Shown: piece by piece, positions 2,384 to 19,605 of the stretch
Position numbering within the stretch: the first letter of the stretch is position 1
How the letters are laid out: the number at the start of each line of letters is the position of its first letter
DNA from: a virus
Direction: 5' to 3' (one strand)
Length of the DNA stretch: 61,689 nt
IMG/VR virus record: IMGVR_UViG_3300011113_000660
Coordinates: 1-61,689 of that record
Translations under genes and position numbers: made by a program
The notes under the pieces: model-generated
The model's database searches: none
Told to the model about the DNA's origin: nothing
The model's input: only the letters and a program-made list of their open reading frames with translations

Positions 2384-2815
2384 ATGTCATGGCTATTCGA
2401 AAGCAAAACCGTTGAAATTTTACCCGAAGACTGCGTGGGCTTTGTTTACGTGATCACAAATAAACTGACCGGCAGAAAGTATATTGGAAAAAAATTAGCA
2501 AAATTCAGCAAGACAACATATAAGACAGTAAAACTCAAGAACGGCAACAAGAAGCGCAAGAAAATACGTGGCAAAATCGAATCAGACTGGCAGACCTACT
2601 ACGGCAGCAACGAACAACTCAACAAAGATGTAGCACAGTTAGGCAACGAAAACTTCTCTCGTGAAATCTTATACTACTGTAGGTCCAAGGCCGAATGTAG
2701 TTACATAGAAGCTAGAGAACAATTTAACCATAGAGTTCTGGAGTCGGATGACTGGTACAACGGACACATTCAAGTGCGTGTACATGGCAGTCATATAAAA
2801 AATAGATTTAAGTAA
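2384..2815 (+). CDS. GIY-YIG nuclease-like protein (SegE-like)
   Basis: 143 aa. The N-terminal VYVITN (21-26) followed by KYIGKK (32-37) is the paired GIY...YIG strand signature, and a downstream Glu in the YIEAREQF segment is placed like the metal-binding Glu of the family. A Lys-rich insertion (roughly residues 38-65) separates the motif from the rest. The single-domain layout resembles the SegE-type GIY-YIG proteins of T4-like phages, which are free-standing endonucleases. It may be a mobile homing-type gene or a domesticated nuclease. It sits in a 34-nt gap after the radical-SAM gene with no strong Shine-Dalgarno sequence; an AT-rich TATGAT lies 13-18 nt before the ATG and could be a -10 box. 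Confidence 0.75.
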   Translation: MSWLFESKTVEILPEDCVGFVYVITNKLTGRKYIGKKLAKFSKTTYKTVKLKNGNKKRKKIRGKIESDWQTYYGSNEQLNKDVAQLGNENFSREILYYCRSKAECSYIEAREQFNHRVLESDDWYNGHIQVRVHGSHIKNRFK

Positions 2816-2818
2816 GAG

Positions 2819-3424
2819 ATGAAAAAAATTTTAATTTGTGGGGATAGTTTTGCTGTTGATTACAAGAATTTGACAAGCAACAACCCAGGCTGGTCTAGTT
2901 TATTATCCAACAATTTTTTGGTAACTAATCTGTCACAGGCTGGGGCAAGCGAATATAGAATTCTTAAACAAATAAAAAATGAAAATATTGATTTGTATGA
3001 CGCTATTATAATTAGCCATACTAGCCCAAATCGGTTGTATGTCAATGAACATCCTATTCATAAAAATAATGCCATTCATCAAAATAGTGATTTACTTTAT
3101 AATGATGTGGTATATCACGCCAACTTGGATCCTGACAATAAGATATTAATGTCAGCTAAAAATTATTTTGAAAATATTTTTGATATGACATATCATGAAG
3201 ATCTATTTTTTTTAATTGCTGATCAAATTAATCTTCTTGCAAATGATAAACCATGCCTGAATCTATTTACATTGTATGACAAAAATTGTAACAAGTTTCA
3301 ACATTATTTAAATTTAAAAAAACAATTTAAAATTGTACCGGGACAAACCAATCATTATACAAGCACAACAAATTTGCAAATTTCCAATTTAATCAAAAAA
3401 TGGATTGATCTTGTTACCAATTAA
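2819..3424 (+). CDS. SGNH/GDSL-like hydrolase fold protein
   Basis: 201 aa, very AT-rich. The N-terminus ICGDSFA (6-12) is the GDSx block I of SGNH hydrolases, with Ser10 as the expected nucleophile. A later ISHTSPNR segment occupies the position of blocks II-III. The C-terminal catalytic DxxH is imperfect: a His is present in the GQTNHYT segment, but the Asp three residues before it is replaced by Gln. It could therefore be a diverged esterase or an inactive relative. Family members deacylate glycans or lipids. It overlaps the next gene, which also has an SGNH-like domain, so the two may act together or be diverged duplicates. Confidence 0.6.
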   Translation: MKKILICGDSFAVDYKNLTSNNPGWSSLLSNNFLVTNLSQAGASEYRILKQIKNENIDLYDAIIISHTSPNRLYVNEHPIHKNNAIHQNSDLLYNDVVYHANLDPDNKILMSAKNYFENIFDMTYHEDLFFLIADQINLLANDKPCLNLFTLYDKNCNKFQHYLNLKKQFKIVPGQTNHYTSTTNLQISNLIKKWIDLVTN

Positions 3425-4430
3425 AATAACCATTTTTGTCGGGGATGTTTCAGAAACGACATCAAGTGTTGCTTTGGCGTTGGACAAGGAAGCAGTGTTG
3501 CTCGATCAAAGTAACTACCTGCAATTCTTAAATAAAGAATTGTTAAATCATACTTTTTATACCAGCTTAGGCGATTTACCAAAAGATATAGCTATTATGT
3601 ATCGTATATTAGACAAAGCCGATGACATTATTTACTGCCCGACTAATTCCTGGAGCGATGATAAAGCTCTCGACATTACAAATGTCACTAGTTCCATACA
3701 AGGACTCACCGAATTTATTTTGTTTAATATTTCTCAAATAAAACATAATGTATATAATCTAGATTTAACAAAATATACTAACAGCGTATACACTATTCTT
3801 GCTGATTCTCGTAAAACAGATAGTCAACAACTATGGATTTCTGGTTGTAGTGTAACACACGGCGTAGGAGTAGATGCGTCTCAACGGTATGGGCAACTTC
3901 TTGCAAATTTATTAGAGTTGCCGGTGTCGTTTTTAACCGCTGGAGGATCATCTATTCCGTGGGCAATAGATCAAATAATTAGGTCAGATGTATGTCCTGG
4001 TGATATTGTAGTTTTAGGACTAATCAGTGAGTTTAGATTTCCATACTGGGCTGGTAAAAATGGTGTTTGGCACATAGCTTCTTCACATCGATTGCACGCT
4101 AAAAAATTACCCTTTACAAATTTATCACACAGCATGTTAGACAGACTAATTACAGATGAGAATTGCTTTTATCAATCTGTAATTAGTATTAACCAACTTA
4201 TAAATTTTTGCAGAAAACTTAATCTAAAATTATTAATTTTAGGATTACTCTCCTCACACAAATTAGCATTACAACTAAGCAACATATCACAATTCAAAAA
4301 CTATGTAAACTTTGAATCACCAAATTCTTACGTTGATCTAGGAACCGACGATAAGCATCCTGGGCCACAACAACACAAACTCTACGCAGACTTTTGTCAA
4401 TCAGCACTAAAACAACTTCATTACATTTAA
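3405..4430 (+). CDS. SGNH-like hydrolase with long N-terminal region
   Basis: 341 aa if the TTG at 3405 is used; TTG at 3411 is equally possible, and either overlaps the previous gene. The recognisable domain starts near residue 144: SGCSVTHGVG (146-155) is a block-I variant with Ser149 as nucleophile and Cys in place of the usual Asp, TAGGSS (178-183) fits block II, and TDDKHPG near the C-terminus supplies the catalytic Asp-x-x-His. The first 140 residues show no motif I recognise. Probably an esterase or acetylhydrolase acting on a carbohydrate; no signal peptide is visible. It is the last gene before a convergent, RNA-like intergenic region. Confidence 0.6.
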   Translation: MILLPIKITIFVGDVSETTSSVALALDKEAVLLDQSNYLQFLNKELLNHTFYTSLGDLPKDIAIMYRILDKADDIIYCPTNSWSDDKALDITNVTSSIQGLTEFILFNISQIKHNVYNLDLTKYTNSVYTILADSRKTDSQQLWISGCSVTHGVGVDASQRYGQLLANLLELPVSFLTAGGSSIPWAIDQIIRSDVCPGDIVVLGLISEFRFPYWAGKNGVWHIASSHRLHAKKLPFTNLSHSMLDRLITDENCFYQSVISINQLINFCRKLNLKLLILGLLSSHKLALQLSNISQFKNYVNFESPNSYVDLGTDDKHPGPQQHKLYADFCQSALKQLHYI

Positions 4431-4439
4431 AACTAGATA

Positions 4440-4812
4440 GGCAACTTTACTGACTCTGCGCCGGGTGTTTGATCCGGCCCCATCGAAGAACGGTGCAATA
4501 CCCGGTCTGGAAAACTTTGGGCGTCAAAGGCAATTGCTAACTTAAGGCAACAAATGGTTTGAGCTCTGTGAAAAAGACACAACTCATGCTCATAGGACTT
4601 GGTTCTTCTCGGGTCACTAGGGTTCCGTTGACATGTGAAGCTTGAGTAGGGGGTACCGGTCAACCGCCTCCGTGTAGGAAACTACAATCTCATTGGAATG
4701 AAGTGACTGCGATACTCGGATAATGCAGAACTTTTCACCCGGCAACGGGTGAATTGTGACCACTTAATCTGGATAATACGGAAAAACATTTTCTTTATAG
4801 CAACAGATAAAG
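4440..4812 (+). ncRNA. Candidate large structured non-coding RNA
   Basis: This convergent gap contains no ORF with plausible protein sequence but many pairings. 4734-4753 is an 8-bp stem capped by a GCAA tetraloop. 4673-4686 is a 5-bp stem capped by GAAA. 4461-4466 pairs with 4500-4505 (CCGGGT/ACCCGG) around a smaller CCG/CGG pairing. 4515-4519 pairs with 4525-4529. 4701-4705 (AAGTG) can pair with 4761-4765 (CACTT), enclosing a 4-bp helix (4707-4710/4725-4728) and the GCAA hairpin as a three-way junction. Both tetraloops are GNRA only when read on the + strand, so I assign + orientation. Large ornate RNAs such as GOLLD and ROOL are known from phages and similar sources; I cannot assign this to a family. 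It lacks visible group I, group II, tmRNA or RNase P core motifs. Confidence 0.6.
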
Positions 4813-4857
4813 ATGCGTGAGCAAAGCGAAACGCATAGACTTCGTAATACGAAGTCT
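4813..4857. terminator. Pair of hairpins closing a convergent gap
   Basis: 4813-4836 is a 6-bp stem (ATGCGT/ACGCAT). 4837-4857 is a near-perfect palindrome (AGACTTCGTA, one base, TACGAAGTCT). They abut and end one base before the stop codon of the - strand radical-SAM gene. They could be a bidirectional terminator for the ncRNA/SGNH unit and the gp26 operon, or the 3' end of the structured RNA. There is no long U-tract, so efficiency is uncertain. Confidence 0.5.
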
Positions 4858-4858
4858 C

Positions 4859-6427
4859 TTATACCATCAACGCACTGTCTGCTTTGGAAGTTTGAATTGG
4901 AATGATTCTTTTAACCAAAGGTTTTACAACGTCAGTGAAAGCTGCTGCTCGAGTTCGGTTGACTTCAAGATACAACTCAATTTCGCCATTGAGATTGTAG
5001 CTCATGTTTATTGCATCTCGTGTGGCACGTATCCAGCGTAGATACCTTTCTTTGACTGTGAGTTCGGGATTAGAATCACATACCCAGTCAGATACGTTGT
5101 TGGATCCTTCAAACCAACGAGTACCAAGCTCTTGTGACATTGCCTCAACCGGAGTATGATCTTGTATAGCCATGGTAAATCTTACATCGTAAATCAACAC
5201 TGTGTCGTTGATAACATAGCGTTGCCAGCGTTTTAACAATTCCAGTGACTCCTGGAAATCTTGTTCTGTTTCGGTCACATACCCTACAATCATTAATAAT
5301 GAATTTTGAATACCGTATTTTTCGCACATGGCCAAATGATAATCAACATCTTCATTGGTAAATTTTTTACGCATGTGGATTCTTACTTTTTCACTGCCGC
5401 TCTCTAATCCCACTGAGATCGTTTTTAGTCCTACCTTGCTCATAAGTTGAAACATTCTTTCTTTGTGTGCTGTTTTGGGTCTCAGAATAAAATTTCCGTT
5501 CAGTGAAAGTTTAGATAGGCCTGGATGATTGTTAATATGGATGTCAAGCACTTCTAACATTTCCATAAACTGACTCAGGGATCCATTGAGCAAACTATCA
5601 CTAAAGATAAATTCGGTTACCCCAGCATCTAGATAGCACTGTAATATTTCATCAGCTATGTGTTTTCCTGTCCGGAATCGATATTTTTTCCAGTGAGCGG
5701 CCACATCACAAAATGTACAATCTTGTACACACCCCCGGCTACCGGTTATGGTTATTACAGGGGTTCCTTTTGGTCCTAAATAGTCATTGAGATTATCTTT
5801 GAGTTTTTTATAATCTACAAAAGGCAAACTGTCTAAATCGTTAATTTGTTCTTGCTTGTGTTCAACATTATTTTTGCTGTTCAATCCAGCAATGTTTCTA
5901 TGTCCAGTGATGAATTTTTCAAAAATTATGTCTCCTTCTCCAAGCACATAATAGTCCAATAGATCCTGATCGACTAGGTATCTTCCATAAGAATCAGAAT
6001 TCAATCCTTTGAGTTGGTAGGTTGTGTTGACTCCAGATCCCCCGGCAATAATTGGCAAGTTGGTGTTGTGTTTTTTACAATATCGTAAAAATAGTTCGCA
6101 CCATTGATGTTGGATGTAACTGAATACCGAGATAGCAATAGCGTCAGCACCACTTTGTTTGATTCGATCAGTTATGGCAAGAAAAAAATTGTCAATTTCT
6201 TGTTGTTTTTCGGCAATAGCCACATCCAGATTGCTCCAACTATGTTTGTAAAAATATTCCCACTGCTGGTCTCCAAAATAATACCGTAACTCCATGCTGA
6301 GATCCATTAGATCATAATCGACCTGATTACGATTACACACTCCGGCAAGAAATCCTAAACTAGAAGGCAACCGAGAACTGGGCAGTTGCGCACCGTTAAC
6401 AAGCATGATTTTTTTAAACTTTGACAT
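4859..6427 (-). CDS. Radical SAM enzyme, B12-binding type
   Basis: 522 aa. The first 160 residues resemble a cobalamin-binding-type Rossmann domain: an opening KKIMLVNGAQLP strand, then AIAISVFSY and PIIAGGSGVNTT. A central radical-SAM barrel follows, with Cys233, Cys237 and Cys240 (CVQDCTFC, the CxxxCxxC cluster motif). Later barrel motifs include TISVGLESGSEKVR and GIQNSLLMIVGY, as in the Elp3/MiaB/B12-methyltransferase class. The classical B12 DxHxxG is not obvious, so cobalamin use is uncertain. It is the last gene of an operon headed by gp26, overlapping the 6414-6935 gene by 14 nt. The target (a methylated or thiolated tail component, a glycan or a small molecule) is unknown. Confidence 0.8.
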   Translation of the reverse strand: MSKFKKIMLVNGAQLPSSRLPSSLGFLAGVCNRNQVDYDLMDLSMELRYYFGDQQWEYFYKHSWSNLDVAIAEKQQEIDNFFLAITDRIKQSGADAIAISVFSYIQHQWCELFLRYCKKHNTNLPIIAGGSGVNTTYQLKGLNSDSYGRYLVDQDLLDYYVLGEGDIIFEKFITGHRNIAGLNSKNNVEHKQEQINDLDSLPFVDYKKLKDNLNDYLGPKGTPVITITGSRGCVQDCTFCDVAAHWKKYRFRTGKHIADEILQCYLDAGVTEFIFSDSLLNGSLSQFMEMLEVLDIHINNHPGLSKLSLNGNFILRPKTAHKERMFQLMSKVGLKTISVGLESGSEKVRIHMRKKFTNEDVDYHLAMCEKYGIQNSLLMIVGYVTETEQDFQESLELLKRWQRYVINDTVLIYDVRFTMAIQDHTPVEAMSQELGTRWFEGSNNVSDWVCDSNPELTVKERYLRWIRATRDAINMSYNLNGEIELYLEVNRTRAAAFTDVVKPLVKRIIPIQTSKADSALMV

Positions 6428-18696: not shown

Positions 18697-18786
18697 CTTG
18701 TCAACGCAATTCGGCGTTTTATGCAGGCTTTACCCCCTGCGTAGTGACTAGAACTCACATTGGGCTTCTTTAAAGGAGAAAACAAA

Positions 18787-19605
18787 ATGGGACGTCCTCT
18801 CAAAATTAAAAAAATTACGGAATCTGCTTATAATTCCACTACCGGTGCAAATCCTGGTGTAGACATTGGTTTCAATGCATTGGCATATTTGACTGCACCT
18901 GTATTGCCAAGCAATGTATGGGATTCAACCACAGAGTATCTTGGTGTGGTTGGTGGTGTGCAACCTCCAACAGTGGCCACAACAAACTATCCAATCATCA
19001 AGTGCGAAGTCAACATCGCCAACAGCTACAGCGGTCAAGTGCCCGGATTGATTATCCGTCAAAAAGGTTCACGCAAGTTCTTGGTCGCAACCACAGCTGG
19101 TATTGATCCTGCCAACGCTGTAATTGGCGGCACACCCACAGTGGCCTTGCGTATTCGTGTGGTTGGTAACACCAACTGGACAGCTATGGGCGCTCCTGAA
19201 GGTTATGGCATAGGCACAATCTTTACTCCCACAGCAGCCTCTGCAGGTGGCACCAATGGAACAGCACAAGAAGTTGGCATCTGTGTGTTACAAAATGATT
19301 TGACACCCACAGCAGGCAACATGAGCATCAGCTATTTCAGCAACGACAGTTCTGAAACAGCAGTCAGCAAAATTACCAACAAGTTCTTGCAGAATTTTGC
19401 TGGCGGTTGCGCAGGCGGCGGAGCCAATACTGGCGAAGTTTGGGATCCAGATCTAGTGGTCAACAACGTGGCATTCGCTGACAACTTCTTCAGCGACGAA
19501 GGTGTCACAGCCAAGTCTGGTGCAGACGTTGAAACCTGGGCAGGAACAAGCCAACTTGCAACCGGCAATCTGGACCTTGCTATTGTAGAAAACTATAAAA
19601 CTTAA
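18787..19605 (+). CDS. Putative virion structural protein
   Basis: 272 aa from the ATG at 18787, which follows a strong AAAGGAG site. A Met nine codons upstream has no such signal. The basic start MGRPLKIKKITE is followed by a Gly/Thr/Asn-rich, strand-forming sequence with few charges, the texture of head-decoration or fibre proteins. Segments such as GLIIRQKGSRKFLV and NTNWTAMGAPEGYGIGTIF suggest a repeated beta structure. It is transcribed from a late promoter and ended by a long terminator hairpin. I do not recognise the family, and a role on the capsid or in fibre attachment is a guess. Confidence 0.6.
   Translation: MGRPLKIKKITESAYNSTTGANPGVDIGFNALAYLTAPVLPSNVWDSTTEYLGVVGGVQPPTVATTNYPIIKCEVNIANSYSGQVPGLIIRQKGSRKFLVATTAGIDPANAVIGGTPTVALRIRVVGNTNWTAMGAPEGYGIGTIFTPTAASAGGTNGTAQEVGICVLQNDLTPTAGNMSISYFSNDSSETAVSKITNKFLQNFAGGCAGGGANTGEVWDPDLVVNNVAFADNFFSDEGVTAKSGADVETWAGTSQLATGNLDLAIVENYKT

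Follow-up and report, generated by a model that had tools for sequence, protein, structure and literature searches.

In the 61,689 nucleotides of viral DNA analysed here (IMG/VR record IMGVR_UViG_3300011113_000660, positions 1 to 61,689, hereafter the window), a gap at 4431-4858 separates a gene on the + strand (3405-4430) from a radical-SAM gene that converges on it (4859-6427). No credible open reading frame was found in it, as a previous sequence-only reading had also stated, and a conserved protein-coding frame was likewise absent: across 147 homologous cores every frame contained stops, with the single exception of one minus-strand frame (stop in 146/147), and core lengths were not multiples of three (57/47/43 modulo 3, n = 147). 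The gap is occupied by a non-coding + strand RNA of ~350-420 nt with a covariation-supported fold (Table 1), and that this element is a real conserved structured RNA is virtually certain.

Homologues and fold of the element

The first search, with an 18-nt pattern from the element, returned four viral contigs that were 78-95% identical over ~300 nt. Further DNA patterns, one of them designed for a sequence variant, followed by a profile HMM for locus recognition, brought the collection to at least 246 loci sharing a conserved core (~4449-4785 of the window), and all clear homologues were viral contigs. These include a subgroup found with the second pattern (L154, L175, L138, and L163), with P8 as GUUGC/GCAAC and a re-worked 5′ domain. 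Nucleotide searches of isolate phages and plasmids with group-A or group-B queries gave no match, and one scan of bacterial genomes with the group-A pattern gave three matches only, none of them recognised by the RNA profile. The RNA is carried by hundreds of uncultured freshwater phages, including giant ones with genomes >300 kb, and is usually better conserved than its flanks (94-97% identity vs. mostly 67-87% in neighbouring stretches).

The two DNA patterns behind the collection partly fixed two pairs of the fold in advance (4643/4692 and 4649/4671), a bias removed by also collecting loci by protein, in a viral scan with the adjacent GIY-YIG protein alone. Among the 72 informative loci obtained this way, a clear RNA match lay within ~1 kb in 43 and a further diverged RNA occupied the same place in 17 (60/72 in total), while the GIY-YIG gene occurred without the RNA in the other 12. 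Both central helices varied in these protein-chosen loci, P8 as GUUGU/ACAAC, GUCGU/ACGAC, GUCAU/AUGAC, and GUCAG/CUGAC, and P9 as GAGGU/GCCUC, GUGGU/GCCAC, GUAGGU/GCCUAC, UUAGGU/GCCUAA, and AAGGGU/GCCCUU.

Comparative evidence strongly supports the large structured phage RNA that the sequence-only reading had proposed, with many Watson-Crick pairs covarying across homologues at E = 0 (APC-corrected G-test, tree-based null). When 67 pairs were tested on an alignment of 58 diverse sequences, standard pairs made up 93.0% of cells, compared with 82% after shuffling and 37-46% after sliding, and 39 pairs had changes on both sides, with 340 double-change cells vs. 25-47. Single-sequence folding, taken alone, makes a weak case (z −2.3 for the whole element, z −1.1 for the core). 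The resulting fold comprises at least 12 helices, among them a conserved hairpin with a GNRA loop, and two pseudoknots, one formed by the interleaving of P8 and P9 and the other of the loop-helix type. In the loop-helix pseudoknot, the P7 loop base-pairs with the strand directly 5′ of the first of two heptamers described below (mean longest complement 7.2, vs. a shuffled maximum of 6.4 in 200 reshufflings), and this pairing was preferred over an early hairpin, H11 (4690-4706), which was dropped. An HDV-like or group I core was considered from topology alone and lacked model support, and ribosome bypass from one heptamer to the other, in the manner of T4 gene 60, was ruled out by the absence of frame conservation.

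Comparison with homologues sorted the finer structural proposals made for this single copy. The two terminal hairpins (~4813-4836 and 4837-4857) are genuine, and both show covariation. Both GNRA tetraloops are present, but only the GAAA loop (4678-4681), which caps P11, is conserved, the GCAA loop (4742-4745) being a local feature whose position reads UGCAUA in most relatives. The proposed long-range CCGGGT/ACCCGG pairing (4461-4466/4500-4505) forms in just 52% of cells across homologues and is not conserved, since the same bases are taken by the conserved P2 and P4. A three-way junction suggested at 4701-4765 found no support either: the P7 loop engages its 5′ part in pairing, and the twin heptamers and P12 lie in this stretch. 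The element is richer in GC (46.4%) than the sequence upstream (33.7%) or downstream (38.5%), as had been noted, but not than the whole window (47.3%).

Table 1 Coordinates of the RNA element, its parts, and the GIY-YIG gene in the window
Feature	Position	Strand	Evidence or variants
Whole structured non-coding RNA element	4434..4858	+	at least 246 homologues
P1, closes 5′ domain (P2, P3, P4 inside)	4452-4454/4523-4525	+	G-C<->C-G and A-U<->G-C covariation
P2 hairpin	4460..4478	+	7 bp in 137/147 homologues, many sequences
P3	4479-4482/4518-4521	+	encloses P4
P4	4488-4493/4502-4507	+	inside P3
P5	4534-4537/4547-4550	+	UUGC/GCAA, CUGU/ACAG, UUAC/GUAA, AAAC/GUUU types
P6a	4560-4563/4583-4586	+	homologue pairing
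P6b	4567-4570/4578-4581	+	homologue pairing
P7a-c	4588..4623	+	homologue pairing
PKA, loop-helix pseudoknot	P7 loop 4605-4608/4700-4703	+	complementarity above 200 reshufflings
P8, pseudoknotted with P9	4627-4631/4660-4664	+	GUUGA/UCAAC, GUUGC/GCAAC, GUUGU/ACAAC, GUCGU/ACGAC, GUCAU/AUGAC, GUCAG/CUGAC
P10	4643-4646/4689-4692	+	U-A<->A-U change, 147/147 paired
P9	4649-4654/4666-4671	+	RGGGGU/GCCUCY, GAGGU/GCCUC, GUGGU/GCCAC, UUAGGU/GCCUAA, AAGGGU/GCCCUU
P11 hairpin, GNRA loop GAAA 4678-4681, variable length	4673..4686	+	GNRA in 203/241; covariation
Twin heptamer copy 1, GGATAAT after ACTC	4718..4724	+	same as copy 2 in 147/147
P12 hairpin between twin heptamers, GCAA loop 4742-4745 in window	4734..4753	+	99% of cells paired
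Twin heptamer copy 2, GGATAAT after ATCT	4771..4777	+	same as copy 1 in 147/147
P14 3′ hairpin with TGAGC..AGCGAAA	4813..4836	+	strongly covarying pairs
P15 terminal hairpin, terminator-like	4837..4857	+	perfect 10-bp inverted repeat
SegE-type GIY-YIG gene	2384..2815	+	Pfam PF19835, E 7e-33

Genomic neighbourhood and relation to Polynucleobacter-1 RNA

The gene nearest upstream was on the same strand as the RNA in 113/114 loci and the gene nearest downstream was convergent in 99/116, which argues that the RNA does not act in cis on its downstream gene. The usual order is gp47/gp46-like genes, a SegE-type GIY-YIG gene and the RNA, then convergent DUF6614, T4-baseplate-like genes, a large tail protein, and the portal. 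The GIY-YIG gene usually lies directly upstream in relatives, whereas two cargo genes intervene in the window; cargo genes can be inserted on either side of the RNA, as happened here. The two genes that flank the window RNA are themselves cargo genes, and protein searches with them returned no homologous loci. A fixed dependence on the GIY-YIG gene was ruled out because the RNA is present where that gene is missing, as in the L160 and L240 subgroup. In another T4-like genome type the RNA lies between mazG-like and dexA/gp44 genes (L135, L179, and L250). Tandem AGGCAC repeats occur immediately upstream of the RNA in these three loci and in L231, all four with mazG-like upstream and dexA and gp44 downstream. 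We also observed a second, different GIY-YIG-like ORF (cluster 27) inserted directly after the RNA in ~15 loci (L117 and related), and SegE-type GIY-YIG proteins of isolate phages (records H25-H39) that are often annotated as NAD synthetase.

The sequence-only reading had left open whether the element was a relative of GOLLD or ROOL or a wholly new class. Neither holds: an Rfam search that covered GOLLD, ROOL, HEARO, and introns found nothing credible in the element even at E 10, and a known motif, the 141-nt Polynucleobacter-1 RNA (RF01718), is present in divergent members that occupy the same gene slot. The window element itself does not match this model at E ≤ 10. By contrast, group-B relatives, which lie in the same slot 3′ of the SegE GIY-YIG gene, match the model over all of its 141 nt (E 1e-10 to 1e-29) and are homologous to the window element over its 3′ core (L270, L279, L293, L298, L315, L318, L325, L328, L329, L336, and others). 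These matching relatives continue into the P8/P9 pseudoknot, P12, and twin heptamers of the window RNA, whereas the RF01718 model stops before this conserved core and the window branch has a re-worked 5′ domain. Since diverged members match the full model in the same slot, RF01718 corresponds to the 5′ third of a longer RNA, and the window branch, being missed by the model, is a sister lineage and not a recognised member. The element is thus a branch that had gone unrecognised, and it represents the orphan Polynucleobacter-1 motif at full length. The 2010 listing gives this motif from Burkholderiales and fresh water or estuary (Weinberg et al. 2010, PMC2864571), as opposed to the exclusively viral contigs of the clear homologues here. 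Elsewhere in the same phage, the window carries another orphan motif, freshwater-2 RNA (18702-18789, + strand; RF02980, 68.8 bits).

Twin heptamers flanking P12

Two 7-nt direct repeats (RGATNAW), 53 nt apart, flank P12, and the two copies are the same in every one of the 147 non-redundant RNAs. On the tree, their variable positions R, N, and W undergo 24, 11, and 4 changes (39 inferred in all), always on the same branches in both copies, although independent changes may be fewer since recombination between phages may distort the tree behind these counts. Watson-Crick pairs in the same RNA, unlike the heptamers, co-change with exceptions. Among complete loci, 229/230 fit one pattern, all with matching copies, and L152, which falls outside it, has ACATGAA twice. 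Diverged members use other letters and keep the rule, with GCATAAT twice, AGGATAAT twice, AGCTGA twice (the seventh position differing), and GGTCAA. Around the two copies, at 4702-4726 and 4756-4779 of the window, additional positions covary in this parallel arrangement as well (351/408, 357/414, and 376/430 of the trimmed alignment), mostly as non-Watson-Crick combinations.

The triplets preceding the heptamers remain CTC and TCT and never equalise, which rules out gene conversion between the copies. Promoter −10 boxes were judged unlikely, as the variants GCATAAT and AGATCAA lose the consensus yet still match each other. No third covarying column was found in the alignment, and no complementary heptamer was found inside the RNA or at a fixed place in the nearby flanks, so that a cis partner was ruled out. 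The lack of both a third column and a complement points instead to an external reader shared by the two copies, or to a copying relation between them. Function may depend on two short words matching each other rather than on particular letters, through a shared-partner or copying rule, a reading to which we give less than even odds. To our knowledge, an identity rule of this kind has not been catalogued for any structured RNA.

Possible modes of action and significance

The best explanation overall, which we favour over its rivals at slightly less than even odds, is a stand-alone trans-acting RNA whose twin heptamers dock one shared partner. The RNA would arise from a promoter of its own, although a consensus scan identified none, or through transcription running on from the upstream operon, and would be released as a stand-alone molecule at P15, where some relatives have a short U run after the hairpin and no consensus U-run terminator was called in the window. 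It would then act in trans as a scaffold, with the two heptamers as equivalent docking sites for one putative partner. The likeliest candidate for this role would be a dimeric or multimeric protein encoded by the phage, with a complementary nucleic acid as the less likely choice. Reading of both heptamers by one partner would account for the need to match each other despite the freedom of the individual letters to vary. That the RNA stands alone is in line with its not being tied to one neighbour, given its presence without GIY-YIG and in a second T4-like context. The trans-acting, shared-partner mechanism as such is more speculative. Concerted changes without an intermediate are unusual for protein-site coevolution, which speaks against the favoured explanation.

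An unlikely alternative is a 3′-UTR element or bidirectional terminator that protects or terminates early (gp46/47, GIY-YIG) mRNA where it meets convergent late genes. The RNA does lie directly 3′ of + strand genes, convergent with − strand genes, and ends in hairpins, but several hundred nucleotides with invariant stretches and pseudoknots go far beyond the needs of a terminator, and the RNA also occurs between co-directional genes of the second genome type and with different upstream genes. Somewhat less probable still is an RNA-only oligomer in which the twin heptamers serve as subunit contacts. GOLLD and ROOL are phage-borne RNAs of unknown function and, like OLE, form homo-oligomers without protein (PMC12286853), and the element resembles them as a large, ornate, pseudoknotted phage RNA with a conserved GNRA loop. 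Unlike these families, which it matches in neither sequence nor structure, it is about half as long, lacks nearby tRNA clusters or islands, and is present in single copy at a T4-like recombination/late-gene junction, and no complement of its heptamers is conserved within the RNA.

The heptamers could also be copying or strand-transfer sites, such that a polymerase or primer copied from one repeat anneals to the other and identity is kept without a separate partner. Such a scheme would fit an identity independent of letters and the missing third covarying site, yet no reverse transcriptase or primer system was identified, the flanking triplets remain different, and the rest of the fold is left unexplained, making it improbable. 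We consider it very improbable that the RNA is a self-splicing or homing element with the neighbouring GIY-YIG endonuclease as its helper: HEARO (the IscB omega RNA) and group I/II introns are likewise structured RNAs near endonuclease genes, and a GIY-YIG gene lies directly upstream in most loci, but none of their covariance models match, the neighbour here is SegE-type, no gene is interrupted, and RNA and GIY-YIG gene each occur without the other. We take the second and third columns of the 2010 catalogue table to be cis-regulatory and riboswitch. A cis-regulatory leader or riboswitch, the role left open by the Polynucleobacter-1 row of that table (y y ?; PMC2864571), is likewise very improbable, since a downstream gene that is convergent in most loci leaves nothing to lead.

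A candidate lead in a cultured phage comes from Agrobacterium phage Atu_ph07, in which the core pattern matches two paralogous unannotated intergenic stretches of ~500 nt each on the − strand (L341 and L342/L343, at ~383.3 kb and ~490.1 kb). Both read CCGUUGU..GGUACAGGAYAACCGCC, the same P8 and core with their own P9 stems, and the P9-flanking stems differ between the paralogues while complementarity is kept. Beyond the core, the sequences show weak similarity (nhmmer E 0.001), and we therefore treat these copies as a lead only. Close to the second copy is a gene whose annotation reads translation initiation factor 3. If the lead holds, a cultured phage with a laboratory host would make the question testable now.

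Taken together, these results extend an orphan Rfam motif of 141 nt to a complete, pseudoknotted phage RNA of defined structure and give it a home in phages, including ones with genomes >300 kb. The concerted twin heptamers are a sharp and testable anomaly, and the conservation of the RNA above that of most neighbouring genes implies an important role in phages common in fresh water.
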